Assembly (NCBI GenBank): GCA_029834535.1
Contig: JAQMWT010000521.1
Coordinates: 168,857-232,856 of the forward strand
Direction: 5' to 3'
Source of the DNA: Chrysophaeum taylorii
Lineage: Eukaryota; Sar; Pelagophyceae; Pelagomonadales; Pelagomonadaceae
DNA: 64,000 bases
Below, piece by piece: positions 29,246-64,000 of the stretch (position 1 is its first letter; each line of letters starts with the position of its first letter). The position numbers and the translations under genes are program-made. The notes beneath the pieces were generated by a model. It searched no databases, was not told where the DNA came from, and saw nothing but the letters and a program-made list of their open reading frames with translations.

Positions 29246-32200
29246 TCACGAGGTGAGGTAACGAGCACGAAGCCGGAGAAAGGAAGGAGCTTCCGTACTG
29301 CGGGTGAAGATATCGCTAAGGTTGTCAAGGCGAGGAATGTGTTGGAGATCAATGATGTGGTTGCGATGATATTCGGCGGTGCTGTAAAAGCGAATGTCAA
29401 TATGGCGTGTGCGCCGTGTAAGACATTGGATACGGACTTGGGTGACGGTGGTGCTATTATCGACATACATTGGTACCGTAAGGTTATCGACGAGTTGGTT
29501 GTCAGTCACATCGCGGTCTCCTCGTCGTATGGCGACAAGCTTGATGGTCACTCTCCGCCGACCGACCTTTCGGCGCTCCTCGTCTACAGGCCCGTGATTC
29601 CGGACTGGCTCCTGTCGGTCCGGCCTGGCTCCCATGCTCGGGAGAGGTCTGAAGTTTGTTAGTTAGTTAGTCATTGGTGCCGTGTGACGAGGGAGATCAA
29701 AGTCATCAAAAAGTTTGAGAAGCCAAGAGAGCTCAGCAGTAGCGGCGTAAAGAGCGAGCAATTCAGCTTCAAAAGAAGAGCGTCTAAGGAGGTACTGCGA
29801 GCGGGAGCAGTAGGCTATCATAGAGCCAGCAAGGAGAAAACAAAAACCAGTTGTGGAGTGGCGGTCATCAGGGTCGTCGGCCCAGCTGGAGTCGGAATAA
29901 CCACAGAGACGAAGGGTAGAATCGCGACCAAGAATAAGGGCAAGATCCTGAGAACCGTTGAGATAACGCAGAGTGCGGGATAAAGCGTACCAGTGGGGTT
30001 TACCAGGATTGTGTGAAAAACGCGCACACTGATTGACGGACCAAGTGATATCAGGGCGAGTCATAATGGAAATAATTAGGATACAGCCAACAATACGACG
30101 AAAAGGGATGCGCGCCATGAAGATGTGATCTGGAGAACCAGGAGCAGCACAATCAGCCGCAGAAAGATGAAGACCTTTGGGAGCGGGAGTCAGTTCAGGT
30201 TTAGTGTTGATGAAGCGATGTTCGGTAAGGATTTCACGGATAGCATGGGATTGGTCAAGAGTGAGTGTTCTTCGAGGGCGATCACGCGTAATGCGAAGAC
30301 CAACGTAAGTGGTGAGATCAAGCTCGTTGACGTCAGTGAAGGTTCTGAAACGGAGGAAGAAGGCTTGGTAATGGCCAAGGCAATGACGAGGGTGCGCCGC
30401 AAGAAGATCATCAACGACAAGAACGAGACGTAGGATAACGGTGGAATTAAGCACGAGCTTGTAATTGCAAGTGACACCAGATCCGCGGACGAAGCCACAA
30501 TCATTGACTAGGAAGCGTTCCAAATAATGCCACCAATTGCGACAAGCTTGTTTGCAACCATACCAAGAGCGACGGAGCTTGTAAACGATCTTGGAACCAT
30601 CGGTGGGTTGGCGAGGAGCATAGCCTTCGGGTGGCCAGACATAGATGTCTTCGTCAATGGGAGCTTGGATAAAAGCGGAGCTGACATCCAACTTGTGCAA
30701 ATCCCAGTCATGAACAGCGACAAAGGTTAGAAACACACGTATTGTGACGATGTTGGCAACTGGCGAGTAGGTGTCGTGATAATCAACGCCGTGAACCTGG
30801 GTGTAACCGCGGACATCGAGGCGAGCCTTGTACGATTTGAAGCGGCCAGAGTCATACTTCTTGCGGAGGATCCACTTGAGGGTACAAATGTTCCCAGAAA
30901 AAGTCGAAGGAACGCGAACAACATCCCAGCAACCAAGCTGACGAAGGGAATGATATTCTTTGGCGATGGCGTGCAACCAGCCAGGACGCTCAGGATTGGT
31001 CTGAGCTAAAGCTTCACGTAAATGGGTGGAAGTAATGTTTGAGTCGTCAATGTATGAATACTGAGAGGTTTCTTCGGAAGCAGAGTAATAAACATGTGCA
31101 TGGGGATCAACAAGGGTGTTAGCCAAACAAAGGGGAAGGAAGACATAATGAACTAACAAACGGAAGCTAGAATAAGAGACATACAAAGAGTGACGGGAGG
31201 AAACAGAAACGACAGAGGAAACAGAATCGTCATTGTGACAGGAGGAAACAGAATCGACATTGCGTTGTTGACAAATGCCAGTATGAAAGTTTGTTGGTTT
31301 TTGTAATGCGCTTTGGTCGACTTTGCGCGGTCGGCCCCGTTTGGCTCGACGTAATGGTGCACGTTTCGTATTGTCCGTTGACGGTTGTGGTATTGTTTCA
31401 GGGGTGATCAGCCCCGATAAGGCCGGCTCCTGAGCATCAAAAACAGGAGACAAGGGAGCAACGGCGGAAGATAAACGAGGGTCATAATAAAATAAGTCAG
31501 GAAAACGAGAATCCACAAGAGGCGGAGGAAGGGGTTGGGAGGACAGAGACTTACGCATAGCAAAATTTTCGTCAAAAACAACGTCAATCGAGGTGTGGAT
31601 GACGGGACCAGTGGCGCGTTGAAGCAATATGCGATATCCAGGGCCGGCAGAGGGATACCCAATGAAGATACCTGTTATAGCTTTGGTAGGCCATTTGTCG
31701 CCAGTAAGAATTGCAGCAGGACAGCCCCAAACTCGAAGAAAATCGACACGGGGGAGAGTTTCATGTAGCATTTCATATGGCGTCATATATCCAGGGTTAG
31801 AGGCGTTTGGCATGCGCTCAGAGATGAAGTCAGCCGTTTCCATGGCCCAACGCCAAAAATCAGGTGGACGGTGCGCATGCACCAAAAGAGTGCGAGTAAT
31901 ATCAGCAGTTGCGCGATGAGAGCGTTCCACAACACCAGAAAAAGCGTGCGCCTGTGAAGTTTTGGACTGAGCTGCAGGAGCACGTTTGAGAGCGATGTTG
32001 TTGCCCAGACAGAAGGTTTCGAATTGGCCCATAAGAGAGCGGTCACGATCGGTGTAGATGAGGGCAATGCGATATCCAAATGGGCGAACCACGGTAGACA
32101 GAAAAGTTCGAGTTGACGAGCGTTCGTAAGTGCATCGTGTCGTGGAGCAAAGTAACGTGTGCGGCGGCGCGTATGGTCATCGACAAACGTGAGGATTGCT

Positions 32201-33063
32201 CTGTCTTGATAAATCAAGGAAGGGGCGCCTGCGAACATGAGATCGGCGTGGATAATAAGATAGGGCGCAACGGCACGTGGACGAGACAAAGGCTCGGAGG
32301 CAGGAAGCAAGGTGGAAGTGGAGGCATGTGCTTTACGTTGGCCAACATGCGCAGCATGCATTTTACCTAGAGCACAAGCAGGACAAAAAGAAAGAGACGC
32401 GGAGCTCGGGAAAAGGGGTGCGCCAACAGCGAGAGAAGACAAACGTCGGATATAAGAGGGACTATAGTGACCAAGACGAGCATGCCAAAGGTCGAAGGTA
32501 AGTTGAGTGCGCTGAGACACAGCGGGAAACGCACAAGGGTCATGTACGCGAGGGCAAGAAGAAAATGCCACAAAAGGTGAAACGAAGTCCGCGTAGGGCG
32601 CAACGGTCGTATTGCCGATCCAACAGACGATCAAAAGAAGACCACAGCGACGAAGCAGGGGAATAACGTGATGCGTTTGACGGTGACGTAAAATGCGTTG
32701 CGGATGAGCAGGGCCAACAGCCTGAATCGTGTGACAATCGTAACCAACTTGCTCAAGGGCATGATCCGAAAGGATCCGTTTGTCACCAAGGCCAGGAGAA
32801 ATGAGGGTATGCGGGAACGCGACATGGATACCATGAGGGGCGGAAAGAGTGGGTGGAGGAGAAGGAAGACCACGATTGTCGAGAGGACCAATTGAAGGAA
32901 ACGTTAAGTGAGCAGTGCCAGAACCAGAAACAGTGCCAGTGCCGATAGCAGAAGTGATTGAATGCTGTTGAGTGTTGTCAAGGTCAGTGAAACCAGCAGA
33001 AGAATTGAAGCGATTGACGTTTGCGCCGGTATCGTGGACGACGAGGCGAACACCTGCTACCAT
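29246..33063 (-). pseudogene. Copia pol: protease, integrase, RT, RNase H
   Basis: 33063-31783: protease with VVHDTGANV near its N-terminus; integrase zinc motif (HARLGHYSP...CPACALGK) and the first core Asp (IHADLMF). A frame change near 32.1 kb leads into 32092-29663: the rest of the core (SGVVERSHRAT), the GxGYR-like C-terminal motif, RT with HDTYSPVAN, KLDVSSAFIQAP and LVLVVDDLLAAH, and RNase H with GYSDSSWADD. The usual YVDD Tyr is replaced by Val. RNase H is cut at 29671 by a 193-bp insertion and finishes at 29478-29246 (RTRHIDIRF, LSDIFTRS). No capsid-like or zinc-knuckle gag precedes the protease. Confidence 0.85.
29479..29671 (+). mobile_element. Short LINE derivative inserted in the copia RNase H
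   Basis: 5'-truncated copy of the 44227-44570 element ending in GTTAGTTAGTTAG. Flanked by CATTGGTACCG (29468-29478) and CATTGGTGCCG (29672-29682), an 11-bp target duplication with one mismatch. Confidence 0.8.
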
Positions 33064-33160
33064 GTTACAACTGGAATGGGGCGTTAGACTAGCGATAAGG
33101 GAATGACGTAGGGATACTAGATACGTGGTGCAGGGGTAAGTGTCATAGCTTCCTCACACA
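33063..33160 (-). repeat. Copia 5' LTR
   Basis: 98 bp, nearly identical to 28975-29072. The protease ORF starts two bases outside it. Confidence 0.8.
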
Positions 33161-46125: not shown

Positions 46126-46320
46126 TAGAGATAGAAAATTTGATTTAGGGTTAGTACCCCCCTATCCTAGGGTTAGCTCTCTTACTTCTATCACTTTTAA
46201 ATCAAAAAACGCTGTGTTATTCACACCGTGCTGTCCTCGTTGTTAGAGCACAGGACAAGGGCAGACTACCACTGCTCTCACTCTGCTGAAGGGTAACACA
46301 GTTGTGATTACTGTTCTCTA
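46126..46320 (+). repeat. 5' LTR of methyltransferase retroelement, copy 1
   Basis: TAGAGATAGAAAATTTG...GATTACTGTTCTCTA. The left edge is uncertain by ~10 bp, because TAGAGATAGA could also be read as the end of an internal region. It is homologous to the LTRs at 57344-58017 and, inverted, 35727-35900 and 43763-43939. Downstream (46321-46345) no exact tRNA primer site is evident. Confidence 0.65.
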
Positions 46321-46404
46321 GGTCACGGGCACCAGTCCGGTCTCAGCAGAGTACCAGGATTTCCAGTCGAGTTCCGCTACCCGACGTTCCCGAACCAAAA
46401 CAAG

Positions 46405-48576
46405 ATGCCGACAAATCAAGAACTCCAAAGGAGTTACAGCAACATGCTCGAGCATTGAAAGATCAAGAAGCTCGCTTAGAGGCAAAGCATCAAAGCGAGT
46501 TGCAAGCACAAGCTCAAGCAAACGACGCTCGCATCCAAGCACTCGAAGCATGTTTAGTGCAATACAGCCACCACCTGCCGTCGCCGCAGCGACTGCTCCC
46601 CCCACTCCAGCTCAACAAGACCCCAAGAACAAGGCCAACACCTTCAGTGACCCACCAAGCTCTGTCCTCAAGTCCATGGACGGCGCTCAAGTCACCCCCC
46701 AAATGCTCTCGTTTCGCGTTATGCAGTTGTTCGTTGAACACCTCATGCCCGGAACCGGCATCACGCAATACTTCCTGCAAGGCTTCTACACGTGGGAATC
46801 CGTCTTACGCGGATCTAACGATCTAGCAGACGCTCTCCTAAGCCACTGCATCAAGGAGTATGACAAGGACCCCGACAACTATGCCACAGCCGGCAATACT
46901 CAAGATTTCCAACGTCGCTTCGTCTACTACAAGGGCGTCTACCGCAAGTTCGGCAAACACTTCCTTGAGACTGTATACGACAAAAACTCCAAGAACTCAA
47001 AGACCAAGACAAAGATACGGCCGATACAACGAAAGGAAAGCTATATCCCATCACGCAACCCCACCTCCAAGGAAAAGAAGCCGACTTCATCGTGTACCTC
47101 CGCGAGACCGTGCACCCCCTCTTTCGCCGTTTCCTGCATGCCGGTAGCGACTCCGTCAAGCACCCAGCATACGACGAGATTGATGCACTCGGATCCTCCC
47201 ATCCGATAGGACTCGAATTCGTACTCCAAGTATGTCTCGCACTTGACAAGCACACGGGCCAGAACCACGTCCATCATGCGCATTATGTCTTCAATCCCTT
47301 CCTGGACACGCCGTTCAACCCGGAGATCCACGAACCAGCGCACTATATAGATTTTATGTGCCACGTTCAACAAAAGCTCCGTCAAACTACCGACGACACT
47401 TCTCTCCAACTCAGCGACAGCACGATACAACAAGAAATCCACAAGATGCTCCGCTTCAAGTACCTCCCAAGCTTACTTGACTCCCGCGCCCCAACCCACA
47501 TAATAGGTTTTGCACGTCTTGCAAACTGCCTTCGTACCCCCAACGACTCGCTGTTACTCGACGAAGACAAGGAGGCTACAAGCAATTTACCCAAGTTGAT
47601 CGCCCGCATCACGGTTATCTCAACCTTTGAGCGCAACTTTTGGGCTCACCTCGAGCCTCACCCCACCCTCAACTTCAAGCCGTTGCGATTCGTCACTGAC
47701 TTCGGTCGTCTGCCGACCAAAGATAAAGACAATCCACGTTTTCGCTCCCGCCGTCATGGCCTTAACCTCACCGAAGATGACGACGACAACTCCCCCTCTG
47801 AAGATGATATCCCTCCGGATCCTGATGAAGCACCCCCTGAAGACACCGACCCTGTTGCCGTTTTTCTCACGGAAGCCAACCTCGATCCAGATGACGACAC
47901 TGCTCTCATCCAACACCTTCACGCTTACCGCAAGAAGCAACTCTCACGCCACCCCAAGAAACCTCCACCCAAAAAGCCCCCTAATCCTCGCTCACCGTCC
48001 TACTACGACATCAATGACAGCCCTAAGCCCAAGGCCACCCCTGTCACCCCAACCAAGAACAAACAACACCCCCGTGCTTCTCCCGTCACCCCTGACAAAC
48101 GCGAGCACCCGCACCTCCGCAAAGTCACCTTTCCTACCCAAACGCACCCCCCAAAGCCATCCACTCCTGACCAACGGTTCAAGGTCCCCCTCCGTGATGT
48201 TCGTCGCAAGCTCCAAACCATCCGGAACCTTAGTCAAGCCGGCCGTCAACACACCTCCAACTCGGATCGTATGACCAAGCTCATCAACCTCATCACCACT
48301 ATCTCCGACGAGATACTCCTCTCCGAGGCTGATTCTGACGCCGCCGATTTTCTTCCGTTGTTATCATCCGACCCGCAGGATGATCCAACAGATGAGGGCG
48401 AAGCCGACGACGCTGATGACCAAGGCCAACTCGGTTTTTACGATGATCATGGTCAACTATGCCTATACGATGATCAAATCCCCGAAATCGAAGACGAAGA
48501 CGATGCCGCCGAAGACTACGCACAACGTCACCAAGACTATATGCGTGCTCTACACCGGAGCCAGCTTTTTCGATGA
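46405..48576 (+). pseudogene. Gag-like ORF, copy 1
   Basis: About 724 codons in total. A one-base loss near 46428 (CAAAGGAG against CAAAAGGAG in copy 2) and further shifts near 47.0 kb split it into frames 46550-47209 and 47092-48576. Features: N-terminal coiled coil, a Pro/Ala linker, a conserved helical core (LSFRVMQLFVEHLMPG, YTWESVLRGSNDLADALL, HPLFRRFLHAGSDSVKHPAY), an acidic DDDDNSPSEDD stretch, a basic Pro-rich region, and an acidic end (YDDQIPEIEDEDD) stopping at RSQLFR. No CCHC knuckle. The capsid role is inferred from position. Confidence 0.6.
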
Positions 48577-49693
48577 AGGTTGACGACGACGCCTGTGCCG
48601 CCAACCAAACTTTACTAAATCAGGCACCAAGCCTCACGATGAAAAATTTCCCAGCATCATCGACACTTTCCCCTCATCGACACTTTCCCCCAGAGTCGCA
48701 GATTTTCTTTGTGCCACTTACACCGCAGGAATGGCCCCCACAAAGACCAACTCGCTGCACGGACGCAATGGACCCGGCACTGTAGTTTCTTTAATTGACG
48801 GTGGCGCATCTTTTTGCTTCACGCGAACAATACAACATTTTGGTCCCGAGTCCATACGCAGGATTCCCGAACATACCATCCGCATGGGCAGAGGCACCTT
48901 AACCAGCCATTTCATCGGTGTCAAACCGCTGTACTTGCAGGCTGCATGTCTCTCCTCAAAGGATATCAAAGACTCCACAGGCTACGCATTATACTTAGTC
49001 TTTTTGGTCGTCCCGCACTTCAGGCCAGGTTTGCATTTTATAGCGACCTCTCAACTGAAAGCTCTGAACGTCCAAGCAACAGACCCACCGCTGCCGCACG
49101 AACCATACTTGTATGAACTTCCGACCACTTCCACTTCAGATCCTCATGATTACAAAACGCTTCTAGGCACAACCGCAGTAGTTCTCGCCAATCGCCAAAC
49201 TAATGGTCTATTGTCCCTGCCATCCCATCAAAAGCAAACTTTCCATGCTGTGATCAGTTTCCACACCGGAGCAAAAATGTCCCTCAAAGATGAACTTACA
49301 AACATAACTCAGAAAGTAGCAAAGACGCGCTCGCAATCTCACCTCCTCGATTTCGCCAAACTGCAAAACCACTCTGCTTTCCTTACGGAATTAATAGGAT
49401 TGCTGCGTACTTTCGTCCAATATGCATTCACTGGCTCGGCGGACCTCTCTGTGCAAGCACAGCCCCCTCCGCTATGCACAGCCATTACTGCAGGTGGACT
49501 TCACCAAGTGGGCTTCGCCTCTTTTCGCCAACGCCTCGACAAACGCATCATTGTCGTTGCCACCTGTGAAATCAACCCAACTATGCGCGCCCGCGCGCAG
49601 CAACAGTTCCCGCACGCTCTGCATTATAAGGATCTCCGAAAACTCACTGCCGCCTTGCAAGCCGGCAAATTACGACAACATACCTCAACTTGA
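48573..49693 (+). pseudogene. Protease and start of DNA methyltransferase, copy 1
   Basis: Starts with an ATG that overlaps the gag stop (ATGA at 48573). After a frame change near 48.7 kb the 48731-49693 frame has LIDGGASFCFTR, a retropepsin-like DxGAS motif, followed by MGRGTLTSHFIGVKPLYL. Further on are the first methyltransferase motifs: TAGGLHQVGF (motif I Gly loop), VVATCEINP (motif II acidic residue) and HYKDLRKL (motif III). It stops at 49693 just before the catalytic region, which lies in the other frames. Confidence 0.75.
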
Positions 49694-49694
49694 C

Positions 49695-52158
49695 TTGGCT
49701 GTCTTCACCTTGCCTTGTCAACACGTGAAACGCCATGAAAGACTACGATGGCTATGCCACTCCAGCAACTGCCGACCTCTTCGTCAAAGAACAAATTCGC
49801 TTTGTTCGTTGCACGCTCCCGACATACACCATTGTCGAGAACGTACCACAAAACCCGAAAACCCACCAAGAGTACGTCCAACTCGCAAAATGCTATCAAA
49901 GCATGGGTTACTTCAGACACTCCGGTGTCTACAATGCCTCCGCCCTTGGCGACGTCATAAGCAAGAATCGACACCTCGCTGTCTTCGCTCGGCACCCGCT
50001 AAACGGCTACAACCTCGAGAAAACCGCTTCTCCCTGGTTAATATCTCCTCCGAGCATGGTTCCCCTCCTGGATCCAAGTCACACTATCCCAGAAGATCTA
50101 TGGATATCCAACCCCGCTCTTCGCGGCACAGTGACCAGCTATACCTTGGATTACTATCAGCACAAAGCCACTTTCTCATATGCACCCGCCAATGCTGCTC
50201 AACTCTCGATTTCCGAGAACGCACGTATCTGCCAAATGCTTGCACGCCTGAAGAAGCCCTTCACGGATCTAGGCCTGGACGCCGACGGCACCCCCTATGC
50301 CTCGATGACCACCATCCCACATCTCTTGGTATTTACATTGCTGCACAATCATTTGTCGCAACACCCTACTCTCGCCGCCTGGAACACACTCCGCTGTTTT
50401 CACGCCTCCGAGTCACAATGTGCTTTCCACCTGGATGGTGCCATCTCCGGCACTGCCGCCACCGCCGTCGCATGTGGCTACTTCCCGCGCGCATCCCTCA
50501 CCTTGCATTCACGCCCCCCTCAGATATTGGACTGCTCACACCAACCCGCAGTCTTTTCCCCAACGCACACCTTCTCCCTGGATGTCCCCAAGGGCACCGC
50601 CTTTCTGGTCGTAGCCTACACCAACTCCTTGGCCGCTGCTCACAGCTGCTCGCGCCCCTCCACGTGGGTCTACTACATGAATCGCTCGCATCCCGGCTTT
50701 GCCGCGATCGATTCACGAGGGCGAATCACTCTCGATGACCCCATGGGACTCATAATGTCCGAAGCACGTCCCACTTACGCGGACTATGTCGGCCACATCG
50801 GCGACACGCTCCAGAAAAGCACCAAGTGCTACTCGGTCACTGGCTCGTACCCAACCAACACGAGCTACTCCAACGCACTACTGCTGATCTCGCCCGACCA
50901 CATCCGATACGCGACTCTCAACGAAATCGCAAAATTTGGACACCACTCGGACCCGGAACTGCTTCGCTTGTTCCAACAGCACCCGCCGTACTTCGCGTTT
51001 AAGGCACTGGCCAACGCCGTCCCGCACAACATGCTGCAGGCTAAGTACAGCGCTGTCCTCGCACTCCACGAATCGCATCACCACGTGAACCTTCACATCG
51101 AATGGGCAACCATACGCAACGGCATCCCCAGTCCCGGAGACATCAATCAGGTTGCAGAATTCTTCTTGAACATCTCCAGCCGTCTCTTAGCAGTGGAGGA
51201 CCTCCACCTCACCTCGCTCTTCAAAGCTTTTGCAGTGTATGCCCACCATGCTGCGATCCGCAAGCCACGCAAATCGAAAAACCTCGAGACGCTACTTGCC
51301 GAGGCCACAGTTGCAAAAGTCAGAGTCGACAAGCGACCCAGCCCCCCTAGCGCTTCGACTGCAGCTCTGCCCCCCTTGCACAAGCCTGGCACCACTCAGC
51401 ACGCAAAAAGAGTGCTTCTGGTCACTCGCTGGCACCGCATTCACCACCAGCAACCCGAGATTCTTCGCCGCACGATTGCCGCTAACGTAACGAACCTCCG
51501 CCCAGGTGATGATCGGTATCTGCAAGACTGCAGCGAATGCAAGCGCTGTCAATCGCATGTCAGCTTCCGCCATAAGAACGCTTCCTGGTCACAGGATGAA
51601 CTGGCCTACGCTCCTGGCCAACATCTCCACATGGATGTATCCTACCCGAGCATCAGCAAATGCTATGGTGGATTCCGCTACATAATGCACTTCGTGTGTG
51701 TTATTTCGGCACACAAATGGGTATACTTCCTGAGGAAACTGGACGCGCAGGACGTTCTTGCTGGCATCCTCTACGTGGTCAACGTGATTAAGGTCGAATT
51801 CGATGTAAGTGTGAAAATCATCTCATCTGATGCTTTTTCCACATTCCGCTCCGAAGCTTTTCACCCGCTCAAGGTGCAACTTGGTATCCAGTTTCAAATC
51901 ATTGGTCGCCACCTACACCAGCGGAACTTAGCGGAAAACATCATCAAAGAAAATACCCGGGGCACTGTCGTTCGCCTTCTGAATCTGCGCAGCGTCCGCA
52001 TTGAAGGAAAGCCCATTAGCGCCGAGTATTACCACCCGTTTGCTCTGCTGCATAAGATCCAAGCAGACAATCAGCGCTCTCTCATGGATTGCCCTCTCGC
52101 ACTCACATGCCCTGCACCGTCCCCAGGCGCATTATGTCATCTACGGCACCACTCTTGA
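49695..52158 (+). pseudogene. Cytosine-5 DNA methyltransferase and copia-type integrase, copy 1
   Basis: The catalytic motif LDLAVFTLPCQH lies at 49691-49724 with Cys codon 49716. A small frame change leads into the 807-residue frame 49735-52158: YTIVENVP (motif VI, 49828-49848), SKNRHLAVFAR (motif VIII), a ~330-residue variable region likely to include the target-recognition domain, and FKALANAVPHNML (motif X, ~51000). Then a linker, the integrase zinc region (RWHRIHHQQPEIL...CSECKRC), and the integrase core with HMDVSYP, KIISSDAFSTF and RNLAENIIKENT as the D, D and E positions. The family would methylate cytosine in DNA and insert cDNA. This copy is frameshifted. Confidence 0.85.
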
Positions 52159-52634
52159 AGCTCCTCCCCTTTGGCGAACCTGTCACATTCGTATACCCGC
52201 AAAGCCAAAAACTGGAACCCTCCAGCGTCTCCGCCTCTTACCTTCATAGCAACAACTATCTACCGAATCTCCCTGGCACGGACCGATTTATCCGTGATGT
52301 TCACAGCTCTATCCTGCTTGTACATCAAGGGCGATATGGAAAAATCGTCACCTCGAACGACTTCCACGTCGATGCGGACATGGTAGTCAATCGCAACAAG
52401 GAAATTGAGCGCATCAAAGCACAGGCGCAGTTTCCAGCAGAAGCACGGCAAGAGGACCCGCTTCCAGCTAGAAGCGACCAGCCAATGCCGGAACATAGAC
52501 AGGAACCGCAAAAAGAGGGCGAGACTCATGACAACAACCATGATGACAAACCCGATGACGAAGACAAGGGCAAGGAACCAGATCAAACCTCTGCTACTGG
52601 TCCAAGTCCCGTCAGCGACGAGACACCTGAATAG
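52089..52634 (+). CDS. Integrase C-terminal region and acidic tail, copy 1
   Basis: The 181-residue frame continues the integrase after a frame change near 52.1 kb: FGEPVTFVYPQSQKLEPSS, then HQGRYGKIVTSNDFHVDADM, which resembles the GKGY...VxxRDVxFDE block that follows the core in copia integrases. In ordinary copia elements RT begins soon after. Here the protein ends within about 75 residues in an acidic, Pro/Gln-rich tail (ETPE stop at 52632), followed closely by the 3' LTR start. Confidence 0.65.
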   Translation: MPSRTHMPCTVPRRIMSSTAPLLKLLPFGEPVTFVYPQSQKLEPSSVSASYLHSNNYLPNLPGTDRFIRDVHSSILLVHQGRYGKIVTSNDFHVDADMVVNRNKEIERIKAQAQFPAEARQEDPLPARSDQPMPEHRQEPQKEGETHDNNHDDKPDDEDKGKEPDQTSATGPSPVSDETPE

Positions 52635-52690
52635 GACTTCTCCTTCCTCAACAGGCCACCTCCGCCGGATGGAAGCAATCTAGAGATAGA

Positions 52691-53630
52691 CAAGTGCAGG
52701 CCAGTAAGTTCACCTAGTCCCAATCTCTAACCCTAGTAAGTTCACCTGGTCCCAGTAAGTTCACCTGGTCAGTTAGTTCACTTAGTCCCAATCTCTAACC
52801 CGGCGTAAACCCACTCGTGCTCACACCCACTCACCCCACTCTCCTTTGAGCTCGTCGCTCTCACCCCCGCCAATCCAAGCTGCTTTGATCCGCACGCGCC
52901 GCCAGCCTTTGAGTTTGAGTTTTCTAAAACCCTAGTAAGTTCACCTGGTCCCAATGTCTAGACCCAGTAAGTTCACCTGGTCCCAGTAAGTTCACCTACA
53001 GTGCGCGTGTAGACGCCGGGAGGGGGCTTATCGGTATTGCGCAGCACGTGTGGGGTAGGGTGGAGTCGTCGACTCAGAAGAGCATATCCTCGGGGTTGCC
53101 GATCGACAGAGAGCCACGTAGAGCTGAACGTGACAGAAGACGGGCTTGGGCAAGAGGACGCCGATCTCGCGGGGCGTCTGGCCTTGGCTCTTGTTGATCG
53201 TTTGGCGTCTGCGGGCCTTAAGGGATACAGGTTGGAGGAGCCTCGGTGACACGACACGATCGATCATGTATCTGGTACCGTTGCAGTGGCCGTGCGACGG
53301 GTCGAGGTTGCGAAGACTTTAAGCTCGCGATCAAAGTCAGCATGCCGTTGGTTGTCAGGGAGTTGAAAACTCGACTGTAAAGAGCGAGGCGTCGTCTTCC
53401 GACCCAACCTAGTCGGCCGAAAAGAACTCCGACGCCTCGTCTCCGGGAAAAAAAGACCGCGGTCATGCGCGCGTTGTCAGCATCGACAGCATCGTTTCGA
53501 CGGGGCGTGAGAATGGCGCGCCGAAAGAGCCGCCGCGGGTCGTGGAAACAGTCTGCGAGGTCGCCGTAGACGGCTAGGAGGATCAATGTCTGGCTCGCGC
53601 GCCTACATGATCCTTACCCTGAATCGGGGA
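52691..53630 (-). pseudogene. Pif1/Helitron-type helicase fragment (copy H6)
   Basis: GTTCACC block to ~52998, then minus-strand helicase end with [10 protein letters not shown] and QLYVALCR (53267-53028 frame) and upstream segment AILTPRRNDAVDADNAR to 53586. It truncates the 3' LTR of the element at 46126-52690. Confidence 0.6.
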
Positions 53631-53767
53631 ACAAACCCACCCACATCCTTCATGCCCCCCACACACACCCCCCTCTTAGCAGTCGACATTTAGAGACAAA
53701 CAAACAGACCAACATCCTTCATGCCCCCCACATCCTTCGAGCACCACACACACACCCCCCTCTTAGC
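53631..53767 (+). repeat. 3' tail of a nuclease-type element, target of the LINE
   Basis: Two partial tails. The second stops at CCCCCCTCTTAGC, where the LINE begins; the tail resumes at 57223 with TAGCAGTCGACCTTTAAAGA. Confidence 0.6.
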
Positions 53768-53849
53768 TAACTAACTAACTTCGGACCTCTCCCGGGCATG
53801 GGAGCCAGGCTGGGCCGGCAGTAGCCGGTCCAGGATCACAGAGCAAAAA

Positions 53850-56153
53850 TCACACAGTTGGGGTAGAGGCGAGGGATGAAAGTGCGTGGATGGCGGACCG
53901 CCACTGCGCGCGGTCTTGTGCGAGGTCGTGCCACGAGTTGAAGGGGATGTCGCATTTCCGGAGTGCCTTGGCGAGCGACCTCCCGTACGTCATCTGCGGA
54001 GCCCCCGGTGGGTGCTTGGAGCGGACCCAAGACGAGAGCATCTTGCGAGGGAGTCGGGAGAAGGGCATGCGGGCGACGTGACCGGCCCAGCGGAGCTGGC
54101 GGCGCGTGACGTAGACGTCGATGGACTCGAGGCCGAGGCGCCGCAGCAGGATCTCCGTTGAGATGTGGTGGAACCAGGTGTGTTTCCGGGTCACACGACA
54201 CATGACGCGGGCGCACTGCGCGTGGAAACACCGCAGCCGGCGGAACAGGACCTCGGTGAGGCACCACGATTCCGCACCGTGAAGGAGGATGGCCAGGACG
54301 AGCGAGACATAGACGAGGCGCTTGGCGCGAGCAGAGACGGACTTCGAGGCGAAGATGCAGTCCCGCAAGGCACCGAAGGCCTGAGACGCCTTCTTGATCC
54401 GCGCGTCGACGTCTGAGTCGTCGCGGCAGTCGCGCGAGAGGACCGAGCCGAGGTACTTAAACTGGTCGACGACCGGTATGAAGCGGCCGCGCCCGAGCTC
54501 GATGTCCGAGAGGTTCGTGTCGTCGAACGACTTTGGGTCGCCGTACAGGTGTGCCGGGCGAGCGACGAACAGCATCTCCGTTTTGGACGCCGCTTTCGTG
54601 TGTCGGTTGCCGCAATGCACCTCCATGCCCCAGGCGTCGCAGTGTTCGATGAGGCGCGGTGTCTCGCTGGCGGCGATGTGGCGGTCCCAGAAGAGAAAGG
54701 CAACGTCGTCGGCGTACGCCGATTCATCGAAGGGAAACTCGTCGCCGCGAGCGGACCAACCCCGGTTCGTCATCTGAAAGTCTTTCCGCGTACGGTAGAC
54801 ACACGGGGCGCGGCCATGGCGTCGTCGAAACGACGTCGTCAGTGCCGCCATGAACAGCACGAACAGGACGGGGCCCAGGACGTCGCCCTGCTTGACGCCG
54901 ATGATCGAGTCAACCGAGGCGACGACACCGCTGACCGAGAAGTGGACCTGGATTCGGTGGAGGCCCTTGATGACTTCGACGAGCTTCGGCGGGACGCCGA
55001 ACTTCAGGAGCACCTCCCAGAGAAGCTCTCGCGGGACGCGGTCGAACGCCTTAACGAAATCGATGAACAGTACCCACGAGTCCTGACCGTGCTCACGCCG
55101 CTTCTTCAGCGCTAGCTTGAGCGAGAAGGTGGCGTCGGACGTACCGCGCTCGGGTCGGAAGCCACATTGGGACTCGTGATCGAGGGCCTCGCAGATGACG
55201 TTGAGTCGCGCACGGACGATGTTCGAAACGATCTTCTGCGCGACCTCGAGCATCATGATCCCGCGGTAGTTGCCCGGCAGGGAGAGGTCCCCCTTTTTGG
55301 GGAGAATCCCGAGGAGGCCTACGTCCCACTCGGCCGGCTGGACTTCGGACTCCCAGAACTCGAGGACTACACGCTCCAACAGCGGGAGCGTGCGAGCGTC
55401 GGTGGCGAGCGCCTTCCAGACCTCCGCGCGCAGGCCCGATTCGCCGGGCGCGGTGCAGTTCAGCTGACCAACGGCCCGTTTTATCTCCTCCTGCATCGGT
55501 GGTTCCCCGAGTTCCGGACGGATCGGCAACTGGTCAACGTCGTTGATCACGGTGGGGTCGTAGCGAGCTTGTCGACTGTAGAGCTGCTTGAAGTGCGCCT
55601 TGAACACGTCGGCGTTCTCCTGTGGCGACGAGCACCTGCTACCGTCGGCCTTCGTCATCTGCACCTGCCTAGCCAATGTGGTCTTCGTGAGACCGCGTCG
55701 GAGCCGTCCGACCGTATTCCAGTATTTCGAGGTGCCGCCGAGCGACTCGCTTCCCGCGTTGAGTCCGGCACACAGACGAGCAATCCATCGCTCTTTCGCC
55801 CGTGCTACGGCCTTCGCGAGCCGCGACTTGATCGCCCGAAGGTCGTCGAGGATCGTGGACGCCGAGCGAAGACGGCGCCGGGCACCGAGCGAGAGCACAA
55901 ACGCGTGGAGGGAGTTGCGTCGCTCGATCAGAGGCTGGAGCTCTTCCGCCGCGTCCTCAAACCATCCGGGTCGGAGGCGTCGGGTCTTCGGCAGTAAGGC
56001 GTCAGAGGCCGAGGCCGCCACCCGCGCAAGGCGGGAGTACGGCGAGGACGGCGAGCCCTGGTCGGCGTCGGGTACCTCGTCCGTGGCGTCGGTCGGTGCG
56101 TCGTCGGTCGCGTTGTCATGTGACCCACGGCCCAAGCCGAAGATGTCGAGCAC
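53850..56153 (-). CDS. LINE reverse transcriptase ORF
   Basis: 767 residues, uninterrupted. RT motifs: PKKGDLSLPGNYRGIMML (motif 2 region), LFIDFVKAFDRVPRELLW (catalytic Asp), IIGVKQGDVLGPVLFVLFM, SAYADDVAFLFW (YADD), and VDQFKYLGSVLSRD. The C-terminus has a HHISTEILLRRLG...LRWAGHVARMP block and SWHDLAQDRAQWRSAIHA. It overlaps the endonuclease ORF by 38 bp in another frame, so expression would need frameshifting or re-initiation, unless a one-base change split a single ORF. It copies its RNA at a nicked target in the nucleus. Confidence 0.9.
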   Translation of the reverse strand: MLDIFGLGRGSHDNATDDAPTDATDEVPDADQGSPSSPYSRLARVAASASDALLPKTRRLRPGWFEDAAEELQPLIERRNSLHAFVLSLGARRRLRSASTILDDLRAIKSRLAKAVARAKERWIARLCAGLNAGSESLGGTSKYWNTVGRLRRGLTKTTLARQVQMTKADGSRCSSPQENADVFKAHFKQLYSRQARYDPTVINDVDQLPIRPELGEPPMQEEIKRAVGQLNCTAPGESGLRAEVWKALATDARTLPLLERVVLEFWESEVQPAEWDVGLLGILPKKGDLSLPGNYRGIMMLEVAQKIVSNIVRARLNVICEALDHESQCGFRPERGTSDATFSLKLALKKRREHGQDSWVLFIDFVKAFDRVPRELLWEVLLKFGVPPKLVEVIKGLHRIQVHFSVSGVVASVDSIIGVKQGDVLGPVLFVLFMAALTTSFRRRHGRAPCVYRTRKDFQMTNRGWSARGDEFPFDESAYADDVAFLFWDRHIAASETPRLIEHCDAWGMEVHCGNRHTKAASKTEMLFVARPAHLYGDPKSFDDTNLSDIELGRGRFIPVVDQFKYLGSVLSRDCRDDSDVDARIKKASQAFGALRDCIFASKSVSARAKRLVYVSLVLAILLHGAESWCLTEVLFRRLRCFHAQCARVMCRVTRKHTWFHHISTEILLRRLGLESIDVYVTRRQLRWAGHVARMPFSRLPRKMLSSWVRSKHPPGAPQMTYGRSLAKALRKCDIPFNSWHDLAQDRAQWRSAIHALSSLASTPTV

Positions 56154-57129: not shown

Positions 57130-57222
57130 CGTCTCACTCCGGGACGGCCGGGGCCGCCGCAGGGAGCAGGCGTATTAGGCGCCGTCCTCCATCGCAACCA
57201 TAAGGTTAACGATCGCAAGGGC

Positions 57223-57239
57223 TAGCAGTCGACCTTTAA

Positions 57240-57318
<79 letters not shown>

Positions 57319-57343
57319 ACACATCTGTCGATTAGTAATAAGG
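57223..57343 (+). repeat. Remainder of nuclease-type tail with (GACA)n
   Basis: TAGCAGTCGACCTTTAAAGA, then a (CAGA)n array at 57239-57318, then ACATCTGTCGATTAGTAATA. It joins 53631-53767 across the LINE. Confidence 0.7.
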
Positions 57344-57826: not shown

Positions 57827-57859
<33 letters not shown>

Positions 57860-58017
57860 TTATAGGGTTAGTTCTCTTAACTTTGCCACCTTTTGATTTA
57901 AGAAAACGCTGTGTTATTCACACCGGCTGTCCTCGATTAGGAGACAGATTCGAGGACAGACTACCACTGTTCTCACGCTCTGCTGAAGGGTAACACAGTT
58001 GTGATTACTGTTCTCTA
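57344..58017 (+). repeat. 5' LTR of copy 2, interrupted
   Basis: AAATCTGAATTAGGGTTAGT... to 57381, then from 57863 to GATTACTGTTCTCTA at 58017. Joined, it aligns with 46136-46320. Downstream, GGTATCAGCAGAGCC (~58038) is reminiscent of a primer site complementary to an initiator-Met tRNA (TGGTATCAGAGC) but has extra bases and is ~20 bp from the LTR. Confidence 0.65.
57382..57862 (+). mobile_element. 5'-truncated LINE fragment inside the LTR
   Basis: 481 bp, starts within the RT C-terminus (HAQCARVMCRV), keeps the stop (57758) and the full 3' end with a (TTAG)n tail. Flanked by TAGGGTT (57375-57381 and 57863-57869). Over 95% identical to the full LINE by eye, so a recent insertion. Confidence 0.85.
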
Positions 58018-58102
58018 GGTATTGGGCACCAGTCCCGGTATCAGCAGAGCCTCAGGATTTCCAGACAAGTCCCGCTCACTGACGTTCCTGAACCCAAGCA
58101 AA

Positions 58103-60272
58103 ATGCCAACCAATCAAGAACTCCAAAAGGAGATGAAAGAACAAGAAGCCCGTTTCAAAAGAGACATGCAACAACAAGCTCAAGCGTACGAAGCTCGGCA
58201 TCAAAAAGAGATGCAAGACCAAGAAGCTCGCTGGATGGCTCAATTAAGCGCGTTGGCCACCCAAGTGCAAGCAACGCAAGCACCACCACCTGCCGTCGCT
58301 GCTGCGGCTCCGCCTCCCACTCCGGCTCAACAAGATCCCAAGACTAAAGTTAACACCTTTAGTGACCCACCAAGTGCCGTTCTCAAGTCCATGGACTCGG
58401 CGCAAGTCACACCCCAAATGCTTTCGTCTCGCGTCATGCAATTGTTCGTCGAACATCTCATGCCCGAAACATGTATAACTCAGTTCTTCTTACAGGGCTT
58501 CTACACGTGGGAATCCGTCCTGCGCGGATCTAATGATCTCGCTGACGCTCTCCTAAGCCACTGTATCGACGAATACGACAAGGACCCCGACCACCACTCT
58601 ACCGCCGGGAACACGCCAGATTTCCAAGGCCGTTACGTCTACCATAAGGGTGTACACCGCAAGTTCGGCAAGCACTTCCTGGACAACGTCTACGAGCCAA
58701 AGCCCCAAGAATTCAAAGACAAAGACAAGGACCCGACCGATATGACGAAAGGTAAGTTATATCCGATCACCCAACCCCACCTCCAAGGAAAAGAAGCCGA
58801 CTTCATCGTATATCTCCGCGAGACCGCACACCCCCTATTTCGCCGTTTCCTACATGCCGGTAGCGACTCCGTCAAGCACCCAGCATACGACGAAATCGAT
58901 GCACTCGGATCCTCCTGCCCGATAGGACTCGAATTTGTGTTTCAAGTTCGCCTAGCACTCGACAAGCACACGGGCCAGAACCACATCCACCATGCGCATT
59001 ACGTCTACGATGCCTTTCTGGACACGCCGTTCAACCCTGAAATGCATGAGCCTCCTCACTACGTCGACTACATGCGCCATGTCCAGCAGCAACTGCGCCA
59101 GATAACAACCGACGCTTCTCTCCAACTTCCCGACGACAAGATCCTCGAAGAAATCCACCAAATTCTCCGCTTCAAGTACCCCCCAAGCTTGCTTGACTCC
59201 CGCGCCCCAACACACATCAAGGGCTTCGCACGTCTTGCTAACTGTCTGCGCACTCCCAACGACTCGCTGTTACTCGACGAAGACAAGGAAGCCATCCACC
59301 ACCTTCCTAAGCTCGTCGCTCGCATCACCGTCATTTCAACGTTTGAGCGCAACTTTTGGGCTCACCTCAAGCCTCACCCAACTCTCAACTTCAAGCCTTT
59401 GCGCTTCGTCACTGACTTTGGTCGTCTGCCAACAAAGGACAAAGACAACCCCCGTTTTCGCTCCCGCCGTCATGGTCTCCACCTCACCGAAGACGATGAT
59501 GACACCTCTCCCTCTGAAGACGACACCCCACCGGACCCCGTTGAAGACACCGACCCCGTCGCTGTTTTTCTCACGGAGGCCAACCTTGATCAAGATGAAG
59601 ACAATGACCTCATTCACCAACTCCACGCCTACCGCAAGAAGCAAATTTCGCGGCACCTCAAGAAGCCCCTACAAACAAAAAGCCTCCAAATCCTCGCTCC
59701 CCGTCTTACTACGACATCAATGACAGTCCTAAGCCCAAGGCCACCCCTGTCACCCCACCGAAGAACAAGCAACGTCCCCGCGCTCCTCCTGTCACCCCTG
59801 ACAAACGCGAGCACCCGCATCTTCGCAAGGGCACCTTCCCCACACACCTCATCCACCCAAACCATCTACTCCTGACCAGCGCTTCAAGGTCCCCCTTCGT
59901 GAAGTCCGTCGCAAGCTCCAAACCATGCGGAATCTTAGCCAAGCCGGTCGCCAACATACGTCCAGCTCCGAGCGCATGAACAAACTAATCAACCTCATCA
60001 CCACCATCTCCGACGAGATACTTCTCTCCGAAGCCGAAAACGCCTCCGCCGAATTCCGCCAGATGTTAACGTCCGATCCCCAGGAAGATCCACCTGATGA
60101 GGGCGAAGCCGAAACCGATGAACATCTCGGTTTCTACGACGACAACGGTCAGATAGACCTCTACGACGACCTCATTCCCGAAACCAATGATGAAGATGAC
60201 TCCGCCGAAGACTACGCAAAACGTCACAGTGTCTACATGCGCGCTCTCCACCAGAGTCGGCTTTTTCGCTGA
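58103..60272 (+). pseudogene. Gag-like ORF, copy 2
   Basis: Open from the Met at 58103 (MPTNQELQKEMKEQEARF) to about 59670, then a frame change at the AAAAACCTCC-type basic region leads to 59925-60272, ending RSRLFR-like at the same place as copy 1. The N-terminal ~60 residues form a clear coiled coil. It keeps the same core blocks as copy 1, which supports this as the family's structural protein. The frame is also open to 58022 within the leader. Confidence 0.65.
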
Positions 60273-61063
60273 TGGTTGCCGACGACGCCTGTGCCGCCAA
60301 CCACATCTTACTCCAGCAGGCACCAAACCTCAAGATGACGAATTTCCCGACATCATCAACCATCTCACCCAGAGTCGCAGATTTTCTTTGTGCAACTTAC
60401 ACTCCAGGAAAGACATCAAAGAAGATGAACTCGCTGCACGGATGCAATGGACCCGGCACTAAAACCTCATTGATTGACGGTGGCGCATCTTTTTGCTTTA
60501 CGCGCACAATACAAAACATTGTTCCTGAATCCATACGCCAGTTTCCCGAACACACCATTCATATGGGACGAGGCACCCTTACCAGCCACTTCATCGGTGT
60601 TAAACCGTTGTATTTGCAGGCGGCAGGTCTCTCCTCCAAGGATACAAAAGACAAAACCGGTTACGCTTTATATTTCGTATTTATGGTCGTCCCGCAATTC
60701 AGGCAAGGTCTTCAAGTTATCGCAACATCTCAGCTCAATGCTCTGCATGTACAAGCAACAGATCCGCCACTGCCCCGCGAGCCATACCTTTGTAAACTTC
60801 TAAAGTCCTCAACCTTCGACCCGCACGATTATACAACACTTCTAGGAAAGACCGCCGTCGTACTCGCCACTCGCAAACCAAACAGCCTGTTGTCCCAGCC
60901 GTCCCATCCAAAGCAAACATTCGCAACTGTGCTCAGTTCCACACAAGAAAACGAATGTCGCTCAAGGATGAGATTGCACACATCACACAGCATGTCGCCA
61001 AGACACGCTCAAAATCGCACATGCTTGATTTCGCCAAGTTACAGAACCATTCCCTGTATCTAA
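60272..61063 (+). pseudogene. Protease and linker, copy 2
   Basis: Starts at an ATG that overlaps the gag stop as TGATG (60270-60274). 263 residues, with LIDGGASFCFTR and the following MGRGTLTSHFIGVK block intact. The end (after ATVLSS) is out of frame relative to copy 1. Confidence 0.7.
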
Positions 61064-62841
61064 ACGAACTGCACAACCTCGAACATCCTGTCGTCCACTA
61101 CGCCTTCAATGGCACCGCAGACCTCTCTGTGCAAACACCACCCCTACCTCATAGCAGCTATTATTGCAGGTGGACTCCACCAGGAAGGTTTCGACACTTT
61201 TCGCAAACGATTCGACAAACGCCTTACTGTCGTGGTCACCTGCGAAATTAACGATATCATGCGCACCCGTGCGCAACAACTCTTCCCGCACGCCCAGCAC
61301 TATGCGGACCTAAGGAAACTCAATGCCGCACTCCAAACCGGCAAAATACGACTACCTACATTCGACCTGGCAGTTTTTACATTGCCCTGTCAACATCTGA
61401 GTGTAATGAAAGAATACGACGGCTATGCCACTCCGGTCACCGCCGACCTTTTCGTCAAAGAACAAATCCGCTTCGTTCGTTGCACGCTCCCGACCTACGC
61501 CATTGTCGAGAACGTACCTCCCAACCCTCGAACTCACCACGAGTATGCTCAACTCAAAAAGGTTATCAGCGCTTAGGGTACTTCCGCCACTCCGGCGTCT
61601 ACAATGCCTCTGCCTCTGCTTTTGGTGACGTCATCAGCAATACACGCTATCTCGCTGTGTATGTCCGGCACCCTCTCACCGGCTACAACCTCGAGAAAAC
61701 CGCCTCTACTTGGTTAACCTCGCCTCCGAGCATGGTTCCTCTCCTGGACCCCAGTCACACCATCCCTGACGATCTCTGGATCGCCAAACCCGCCCTTCGT
61801 GGTACAGTGCCCCGCTCCACCTTGGACTACTACCAGCACAAGGCCACCTACTCCTACAAGCCCGCCAACGCCTCGAAACTCTCGATTTCCGAAAATGCCC
61901 GCATCTGCCAAATGCTCGCACGTCTCACCAAGCCCCTCGCGGATCTCGGTCTAGATGCCGACGGCACCCCCTACGCCGCAATGGCGTCCATATCCCACCT
62001 CCTGGTTTTCACACTCCTGCACCACCATTGTCGCAACACCCCACTCTCGCCGCTTGGAACACCATCCGCTGTTTTCATGCCTCAGAGTCCCAATGTGCTT
62101 ACCATTTGGATGGAGCCATCAACGGCACCGCCGCTACTGCCGTCGCATGTGGATACTTCTCGCGCGCCTCCCTCACACTACATTCCAGGCCCCCTCAGAT
62201 TTAGGACTGTTCCCATCAACCCGCAGTCTTCTCCCCAACGCACTCCTTTACCCTGGATGTTCCCAAGGGCACCGCCTTTCTGGTCGTCGCCTACACCACG
62301 CCTTGGCCGCCGCTCACAGCTTCGCGCCCGTCCACTTGGGTCCACTATATGAATCGTTCGCATCCTGGCTTTACCGCGATCGACTCACAAGGGCGAATTA
62401 TCGATGACCCAAGGGACTCATCATGTCCAAAGCACGTCCACTTACGCGGACTATGTCGGCCACATCGGAGACACGCTTCAGAAAAGCACCAAGTGTTACT
62501 CGGTCACTGGCTCGTACCCAACCAACACGAGCTACTCCAACGCCTTGCTGCTGATCTCTCCAGACCACATCCGCTATGCGACCCTCAACGAAATCGCAAA
62601 GTTTGGACACCACTCGGACCCGGAACTGCTCCGACTGTTCCAACAGCACCCGCCGTACTTCGCGTTTAAGGCACTGGCCAACGCCGTCACGCACCGTGGC
62701 AGGCAAAGTACAGCGCTGTCCTCGCATTCCACGAATCGCACCACCACGCGAACCTTCACGTCGAATGGGCCACGATACGCCATGGCATCCCAGCCCCGGA
62801 GACATCAACCAAGTTCTCGGCCATCTCCAGCCGTCTCTTAG
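61064..62841 (+). pseudogene. Cytosine-5 DNA methyltransferase, copy 2
   Basis: 61109-61576 holds motifs I to VI in one frame: IAGGLHQEGF, VVVTCEIND, HYADLRKL, FDLAVFTLPCQHLSVMKEYD (Cys codon 61388) and YAIVENVPPNP. A shift near 61560 leads to 61480-62352 with NTRYLAVYVRHP (motif VIII) and the variable region, then another shift to 62404-62841 with DHIRYATLNEIAKFG (motif IX-like) and KALANAVTH (motif X, where copy 1 has P instead of T). The first half is cleaner here than in copy 1. Confidence 0.85.
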
Positions 62842-64000
62842 CAGAGGAAGACCTGAACCTCACCTCCCTCTTCAATGCCGTTGCAGATGCTCACCATGAT
62901 GCGATCCGCAAACCAAGCAAATCGACAAACCTCGAGACGCTTCTTGCCGAGGCAACCGTCGCTAAAATCCGAGTCGACAAGCGACCCAGCCCCCCCAGCG
63001 CTTCGACTGCTGCTCTGCCTCCCTTGCACAAGCCCGGCACCATTCAGCACGCCAAAAGAGTGCTTTTGTTCACTCGCTGGCACCGCATACACCACCAGCA
63101 ACCAGAGATTCTTCGCCGCACGATTGCCGCTAATGTAACGAATCTCCGCCCAGGTGATGATCGGTATCTGCAAGACTGCAGTGAATGCAAGCGCTGCCAA
63201 TCGCATGTAAGCTTCAGTCACAAGAAAAATTCCTGGTCGCAGGATGAACTGGCCTATGCTCCTGGCCAACACCTCCACATGGATGTATCATACCCGAGCA
63301 TCAGCAAGTGCTACGGCGGATTTCGCTACATCACGAACTTCGTGTGTATTATCTCAGCAAACAAGTGGGTCTATTTCCTGCGGAAATTAGACGCAAAGGA
63401 TGTTCTGGCCGGCATCCTCTATGTGGTCAATGTGATTAAAGTCGAATTCGATGTCAGTGTTAAGATCACATCGTCTGATGCATACTCAACTTTCCGCTCT
63501 GAAGCCCCCCCCCCCCTCAAGGTGCATCTTGGCCTCCAATTTCAAATCCTTGGTCGCCACCTCCACCAGCGGAACTTTGCTGAGAACATTATCAAGGAAA
63601 ACACCCGAGGCACCGTAGTTCGTCTCCTCAACCTTCGCAGTGTACGCATCGAAGGAAAGACTATTGTCGCTGAGTATTATCACCCATTTGCTCTCCTGCA
63701 TAAGATCCAAGCCGACAACCAGCGCTCTCATGGACTGCCCTCGCGCACACACATGACATGCACCGTTCCCCGGCGTATCATGTCACCCATGGCACCGCTC
63801 TTGAAGCTTATCCCCTTTGGCGAACCTGTCATTTTTGTCTACCCTCAAAGTCACAAGCTGGAACCCTCCAGCGTCTCCGCCTCTTACGTTCATAGTAACA
63901 ACTCTCTCCCGAACCTCCCCGGAACGGACCGATTTATCCGAGATGTTCACAGCTCTATCTTGCTTGTACATCAGGGGCGATATGGAAAAATCGTCACCTC
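62842..64000 (+). CDS. Copia-type integrase, copy 2, partial
   Basis: An open frame with no stop to the window edge. Contains TRWHRIHHQQPEIL and CSECKRC (zinc region), then HMDVSYPSISKCYGGFRY, KITSSDAYSTF and RNFAENIIKENT as the D, D, E core. A C-run near 63505 replaces a few residues (EAPPPL). The last segment (RYGKIVTS) matches the post-core block of copy 1. Confidence 0.8.

Follow-up and report, generated by a model that had tools for sequence, protein, structure and literature searches.

The window analysed here, 64,000 nucleotides in length, forms the last 64 kb of contig JAQMWT010000521.1 (C521) in the assembly of the pelagophyte Chrysophaeum taylorii (70.8 Mb, 697 contigs). On its plus strand one repeat is present twice, as copy 1 (46126-52677) and as copy 2 (57858-64000), which runs up to the contig end. 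Both are assigned to a family of Ty1/copia long terminal repeat (LTR) retrotransposons, referred to as MTase-copia, whose Pol carries a cytosine-5 methyltransferase (C5-MTase) between protease and integrase, an identity that we regard as nearly certain. The features of both copies are collected in Table 1. An original prediction had given the element limits of 48573..52634. Copy 1 proved to be larger, as it starts with an LTR at 46126, includes a gag-like frame and retains homology to a better-preserved element up to 52677; its reverse transcriptase (RT) is lost. All motifs named in that prediction are present in both copies and in the order given.

Neither window copy contains the MTase in a single open frame. 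In copy 1, frame changes at about 49675-49680 and at 49727-49729 flank LPCQ and split the catalytic lobe, and because of this its match to the C5 methylase profile PF00145 (13.3 bits, E 0.056) stays under the cut-off of 22 bits. In copy 2, the protease and the catalytic lobe up to motif VI share one frame, apart from a single stop immediately ahead of the MTase, and the frame is broken after motif VI; this N-terminal part reaches 25.6 bits (E 1e-5), above the cut-off. PF00145, which had been expected to match both window regions, thus recognises copy 2 and not copy 1 on its own. The integrase core of copy 1 was found below the cut-off of the rve profile, and the protease region is without Pfam match. 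In both copies the protease was named from its LIDGGAS motif and its position.

Table 1. Features of the window, with the two MTase-copia copies first and neighbouring features last.
Feature	Position	Strand	Remarks
5' LTR, copy 1	46126..46320	+	ends TAGAGA...TCTCTA, about 195 bp; matches LTRs of the copies on contigs C96 and C104; limits by eye
gag-like open frame, copy 1	46969..48576	+	535 amino acids; without Pfam match; gag of locus L009 matches at 80%
Protease region, copy 1	48665..49480	+	LIDGGAS 48791-48811; without Pfam match
C5-MTase region, copy 1	49487..51165	+	limits mapped from P0001 312-871; AGGL (I) 49490-49501, CEIN 49565-49576, LPCQ (IV) 49710-49721, VENVP (VI) 49834-49848, RHLAVFAR (VIII) 49969-49992, RYATLNEIAKF (IX) 50905, ANAV (X) 51010-51021
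Integrase core (rve), copy 1	51607..51897	+	PF00665 E 0.00015, 22.4 bits; below cut-off of 32.6
Downstream Pol segment, copy 1	52080..52676	+	matches P0001 1173-1371; one stop
Truncated 5' LTR, copy 2	57858..58017	+	match to family LTRs
gag-like region, copy 2	58019..60272	+	spread over two frames
Protease region, copy 2	60233..61160	+	LIDGGAS 60470-60490; one stop near end
C5-MTase region, copy 2	61163..62840	+	PF00145 25.6 bits; limits approximate; AGGL 61166-61177, CEIN 61241-61252, LPCQ 61382-61393, VENVP 61505-61519, RYLAVYVR 61645-61668, motif IX 62572, ANAV 62677-62688
Integrase region, copy 2	62887..64000	+	ends at contig end, before the RT
Copia element without detected MTase	29663..33153	-	RVT_2 E 2.1e-34, gag_pre-integrase E 3.9e-10
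LINE-like element	53764-57843	-	RVT_1 E 2.9e-25, Exo_endo_phos weak; lies between copy 1 and copy 2
Leucine-rich-repeat protein	22814-24697	+	LRR_6 E 2.6e-26
Weak DUF6589 match	15906-16532	-	E 4.5e-5, below cut-off

Better-preserved members of the family occur elsewhere in the genome. Locus L009 on contig C96 has a gag frame of 578 amino acids, followed by a Pol frame of 1952 amino acids (P0001) in which protease, MTase, integrase and copia RT succeed one another. In P0001 the motif LIDGGAS lies at residue 80, PF00145 matches residues 349-475 (E 1.1e-7, 34.6 bits against the cut-off of 22), rve matches residues 1016-1110 (17.2 bits, under the Pfam cut-off) and the copia-class RT domain RVT_2 covers residues 1686-1933 (E 1.6e-38). 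RNase H follows after one stop downstream of the Pol frame and was identified by its match to the end of a second protein, P0002, described below. A frame of 1868 amino acids similar to this Pol, with PF00145 and RVT_2, is present in L010, and RVT_2 was found in L015 as well. With the integrase upstream of the RT and RNase H in last place, P0001 shows the order of copia elements. The LTRs are about 195-208 bp long; three of the four LTRs in the C96 and C104 copies end in TAGAGA...TCTCTA and one in TTGAGA...TCTCTA. Target-site duplications of 5 bp were recognised by eye in two of the three copies with both flanks (CTCAC in C96, TATCC in C104), and in the third, on C314, only repeats of 89, 60 and 40 nt were found. 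The predicted LTR element of copia type is borne out by the RVT_2 domains, the LTR pairs and the duplications, and the placement of a C5-MTase between protease and integrase by the frame that it shares with protease, integrase and RT in L009.

The family is dispersed in many copies, for which all genome-wide match counts of the MTase family, PF00145 and the RT are lower bounds. With the L009 MTase as query, at least 89 match rows were obtained (78 scored of 770 candidates), and at least 17 of these span 540 or more of 560 residues without a stop. Among the 17, local frame changes are found in C231, C37 and C668 and, by eye, in C314 and C315, and C328 is without motif I. The PF00145 search gave at least 57 matches (123 scored of 474 candidates), headed by a host DNMT2 gene and a host gene of DNMT5 type. 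The L009 RT gave at least 111 matches of 73-100% identity (107 scored of 1503 candidates). Two RT copies without nearby MTase among the matches listed were inspected; C534 does have a MTase, and in C131 a MTase start of different orientation was all that was seen.

That a host MTase gene and the repeat overlap by chance, or that the assembly is at fault, might be suspected from the window, where both copies are broken and one stops at the contig end. However, L009 and L010 each encode MTase and RT within a single open frame, the many copies are dispersed, insertions are flanked by target-site duplications and the same order recurs in P0002, from another data set. We consider this explanation extremely improbable; its first form, a host gene overlapping a repeat, was rejected on the shared open frame of the better-preserved copy.

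P0002 (2396 amino acids, ENA, 34 member sequences) was the best match among those listed when the integrase-to-RT part was searched against a protein database (243 matches, 120 of them listed). This distant relative has the order protease, MTase, integrase, RT and RNase H, the same as in P0001; of its Pol parts, Pfam detects RVT_2 alone. The MTase motifs of P0002 read GGL, LPCQ, NEMVPP, RYMTIRDAAKL (IX) and ANAVP (X), with the Cys and Gln of motif IV identical to the family and the Glu of motif VI aligned with it. Over 485 aligned columns its MTase is 29% identical to that of L009. Used as a genome query, the P0002 MTase gave at least 86 matches (86 scored of 461 candidates), including window copy 2 at 37% identity (E 2.2e-17). 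Among 121 proteins compared, the family MTase profile matches P0001 and P0002 only, both of which were built into the profile. Integrase directly after protease, the usual copia arrangement, was rejected as a description of the element, as the MTase stands between them in both proteins.

An RT tree of 46 rows unites P0001, L015, P0002 and the minus-strand RT of L019 in one clade with a support of 100/100, apart from the other 42 rows; the tree has long branches, and its row for the window copia RT is long and of odd composition. These 42 rows are the MTase-less copia element of the window, entered twice, and 40 copia proteins without MTase match, taken from the 119 others listed. The L019 RT, with an identity of about 42%, represents a lineage B, for which 9 of 133 match rows listed exceed 60% identity, itself included. 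The spacing between protease and integrase in this lineage is MTase-sized (2.6 kb in C560, at 52240-54824, and 2.2 kb in C214, at 9749-11975), and among the MTase matches listed none falls into this interval in either contig. In C681, an element of this low-copy sister lineage appears to be split by an inserted MTase-copia copy.

The nature of the domain was assessed with an alignment of 14 family MTase rows (A1), from which L036, L038 and L039 were left out for local frame changes and L020 and L025 as incomplete; a further alignment (A3) combines 13 of these rows, without L023, with P0002. PF00145 matches 13 of the 14 A1 members at E <= 1 (best 1e-8), which, together with copy 2, supports the predicted match. 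TIGR00675 also matches 13 of the 14, far under its curated cut-off, and among the PADLOC models one for a type II MTase scores best (E 5.3e-9). A profile search of the PDB gave weak but specific matches, to HhaI (E 0.0044), to a further bacterial cytosine MTase (0.016), to HaeIII (0.03) and to DNMT1 (0.5). The yeast helicase DOB1 was matched as well, at 0.2, presumably as noise, and DNMT3 and DNMT2 are absent among the 25 PDB sequences listed.

Comparison by hhalign with eight phage and plasmid MTases (ten genes taken, two incomplete ones left out) plus the host DNMT2 aligned the catalytic lobe, starting directly behind motif I, with a probability of 96.7 (E 3.6e-10 for one comparison) at about 20% identity. 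The part with motifs IX and X (RYATLNEIAKF, ANAVP) reached a probability of 83.7 (E 8.1e-6) alone and 43.8 in the whole-domain alignment, and decoys with reversed columns remained at or below 0.2. The Cys of motif IV, the Glu of motif VI, the Arg of motif VIII and motifs IX and X are present in order; Cys and Gln of motif IV occur in 14 of 14 A1 rows, Glu-Asn of motif VI in 13 and ANAVP in 11. In L009, motif VIII is separated from motif IX by 304 residues, the place of the target-recognition domain in C5-MTases. Judged from its sequence, the domain is a divergent but real match to C5-MTases in the catalytic lobe and in motifs IX-X. The CQ found at motif IV in all 14 rows argues against the DNMT3 class, for which we take PCN to be the canonical form, and by this motif the enzyme is apparently not a DNMT3.

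The MTase is under purifying selection and is constrained much like integrase and RT. In a strict set of nine clean copies (A1 without L010, L014, L017, L023 and L042; 36 pairs) the median ratio of nonsynonymous to synonymous substitution rates (dN/dS) is 0.164, with 0.136 in the catalytic lobe, the lowest of three parts, 0.189 in the middle and 0.140 in the C-terminal part. All 14 A1 rows gave a median of 0.198 over 90 pairs, with 0.61 for the highest pair, and five chosen pairs with bootstrapping gave 0.107-0.144, with upper 95% limits up to 0.208. Looser sets yielded medians of 0.123 for integrase (9 copies), 0.152 for RT (5), 0.157 for protease (8) and 0.213 for gag (5). The median for the whole MTase in the looser set is 0.259 (19 rows, values 0.15-0.26), a set that is less clean as it includes three frame-changed copies.

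Pol might also retain the fold for structure or for nucleic-acid binding, with its catalysis lost. Motif IV reads LPCQ and not PPCQ, which we take to be the canonical form, motif VI is altered in P0002, and the sequence scores are weak. Such a loss is nevertheless very unlikely in our view, given that all A1 rows and P0002 agree in the Cys and Gln of motif IV, that the motif VI Glu aligns in the latter and that, in the strict set, dN/dS is lower in the catalytic lobe than in the other two parts.

We favour, with moderate confidence, the explanation that the MTase is a standing Pol domain of this copia family and methylates the element's own cDNA. Since Pol enzymes act on cDNA inside the particle, this cDNA would be the likeliest substrate, and the position in Pol, the selection and the age of the association all speak for an active role during replication. 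The MTase domain would be made as part of Gag-Pol and would either sit within the virus-like particle or be cut loose there, a release by the protease being suggested by position only. Cytosines of the new double-stranded DNA could then be methylated before or at integration, with the region of about 300 residues between motifs VIII and IX serving target recognition. With this mark the cDNA might resemble host DNA, or the mark might influence which chromatin state the new copy adopts, and the persistence of the element may be helped by it. Because the better-preserved relatives keep the MTase under selection, methylation is probably part of how the family lives. That own or host DNA is methylated is plausible and in line with the published proposal for similar elements (PMC5890265, partial text).

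Several observations weigh against self-methylation by an active enzyme. No copy open from gag to RNase H was seen among the family copies analysed. The sequence match of the domain is remote, as the E value of the best PDB match shows. Motif I consists of AGGL only, is found in 12 of 14 A1 rows, is gapped in the other two and lies outside the hhalign match, and P0002 has NEMVPP instead of ENVPP at motif VI. Outside A1, L020 reads LPCL at motif IV; of the frame-changed rows, L036 has FECN there and L038 PQCN. The MTase region was searched twice against 5.8 billion proteins without a match at the limits set, in word-limited searches that did not list P0002 either, and AlphaFold2 applied to two window pieces as single sequences gave a pLDDT of 32. 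Furthermore, no clear methylation footprint is visible in the mutation patterns examined: the observed/expected ratio of CpG is 0.97 in the element and 1.15 in the other sequence compared, and for the C/T context counts at fourfold sites the two strands disagree.

The lack of a clear CpG footprint would also agree with an active C5-MTase that targets RNA, i.e. genomic RNA or the primer tRNA, in the manner of DNMT2, and not DNA. Pol shares the particle with RNA and the tRNA primer, and a DNMT2 fold can be that of a tRNA enzyme; the host DNMT2 on C634 matches human DNMT2 (E 3.9e-39) and also tRNA(cytosine-38) methyltransferases. For the LINE form of such elements an RNA target was proposed by de Mendoza et al. 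(PMC5890265, partial text). In contrast, the PDB matches include the DNA enzymes HhaI, HaeIII and DNMT1, with no DNMT2 among the 25 listed, and the PADLOC matches are bacterial DNA MTases. We judge an RNA target to be unlikely.

The enzyme could, moreover, act in trans on host chromatin or repress the element itself, as self-limitation or copy-number control. A host MTase+SNF2 protein of DNMT5 type (L028 on C621), found in the PF00145 genome search, suggests that 5-methylcytosine may be kept in the cell, and self-limitation is named as a possibility in the available text of PMC5890265. The family is, however, not low in copy number, and we judge this possibility to be quite unlikely. Motif IV of L028 reads SCVDYS by eye and not PCQ.

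The proposed methylation of own cDNA can be compared with described systems, for which partial texts of the sources cited were used. Retrotransposons with cytosine methyltransferases were described in 2018, in LINE and DIRS forms from Symbiodinium and a Gypsy form from Klebsormidium; the SymbioDIRS enzymes methylated CG in yeast, the negative result for KnitGypsy was inconclusive, and own cDNA was proposed as substrate for SymbioDIRS (PMC5890265). MTase-copia shares the features of DNMT retrotransposons, with a DNMT in frame with retrotransposon enzymes, multiple copies and purifying selection. Among the closest systems is KnitGypsy-Dnmt3 of Klebsormidium nitens, an LTR element with a C5-MTase in its Pol polyprotein and several copies. 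Its MTase has a Ka/Ks below 0.2, compared to medians of 0.16-0.20 here, both purifying (PMC5890265). KnitGypsy-Dnmt3 is of Gypsy type with a DNMT3-class enzyme, whereas MTase-copia has a copia RT (RVT_2), its MTase between protease and integrase, PCQ in motif IV, and PDB matches to HhaI, HaeIII and DNMT1 without DNMT3 among the 25 listed. SymbioDIRS-Dnmt3 and SymbioLINE-Dnmt are likewise retrotransposon-encoded C5-MTases with many copies in an alga, but belong to DIRS elements, which use a tyrosine recombinase, and to LINEs, which lack LTRs, and their enzymes are DNMT3 or of an orphan class (PMC5890265).

A paper of 2025 in Mol Biol Evol states in one sentence, citing the 2018 work, that some DNMT3 members occur in LTR Copia and DIRS elements (PMC12344493). 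The LTR element of the cited work is, however, called Gypsy there, and the partial text of the later paper contains no account of a copia element. The enzyme is called DNMT3 in PMC12344493, unlike the MTase-copia domain as judged by motif IV against the form that we assume to be canonical. A transposon survey of Ectocarpus mentions a DNA transposon with a N4C/N6A methyltransferase (PMC12477816). Neither the partial text of this survey nor those of papers on microeukaryote DNMTs (PMC9998398), accessory domains in retrotransposon polyproteins (PMC6338049) and stramenopile epigenetics (PMC3145265) describe such a copia element. Within the open-access literature, at the level of titles and starts of abstracts and with subscription papers and Repbase outside this scope, we recognised no paper describing copia elements in which protease and integrase are separated by a C5-MTase other than DNMT3.

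Retrotransposons are normally victims of cytosine methylation; here, a copia lineage carries its own methyltransferase under selection. The domain was kept through a split that left 29% identity, and this makes it testable whether self-methylation of cDNA aids integration, hiding or persistence. The copia case adds an element class to LINE, DIRS and Gypsy and, by motif IV, a different enzyme type. This suggests that retrotransposons have captured MTases repeatedly and under selection and not by accident. More tentatively, one may think of an old copia clade, spanning two data sets and, within the present host, two element lineages. A bacterial-like C5-MTase would belong to the core of its Pol, under constraint nearly as strict as that on integrase and RT, self-methylation of cDNA would be obligate for replication and the capture would be independent of the DNMT3-bearing elements; we put this wider picture forward as a possibility somewhat short of even odds.

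Prokaryotic or viral contamination was rejected as a source of the element, as no relatives were confirmed in viral contigs or prokaryote genomes at the sensitivity of a pattern scan; the contig with the window also carries other retroelements and a leucine-rich-repeat protein. In the family itself, gag and Pol lie in different frames that overlap around a CTTTTTC run, and directly after this run the gag stop overlaps the Pol ATG, as ATGA in copy 1 (window 48537-48576) and as TGATG in L009 (3597-3633). From this arrangement, expression of Pol by frameshifting or by stop-start reinitiation is possible, either way. Directly after the 3' break of copy 1, at window position 52681, the start string of the MTase-copia LTR, TAGAGATAG, is found, followed by unrelated sequence.

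The other copia element of the window, an ordinary Ty1/copia that offers a contrast from the same host, has RVT_2 in common with MTase-copia, but its RT is only 26% identical and it is without MTase match. The LINE-like element is bounded by inverted arms of 384 nt (98% complementary) and 85 nt (96%). The leucine-rich-repeat protein is probably a host gene, and no RNA family reached its gathering score in the window. On another contig, a light-harvesting protein gene beside the host DNMT2 gene matches algal antenna proteins, best VCPI-6 (E 3.7e-18), by which the host is most likely an alga whose plastid is of the red lineage. Finally, dozens of RVT_2 matches in the genome have the identical score of 148.1 bits, which suggests that another copia family has recently expanded in the same genome.

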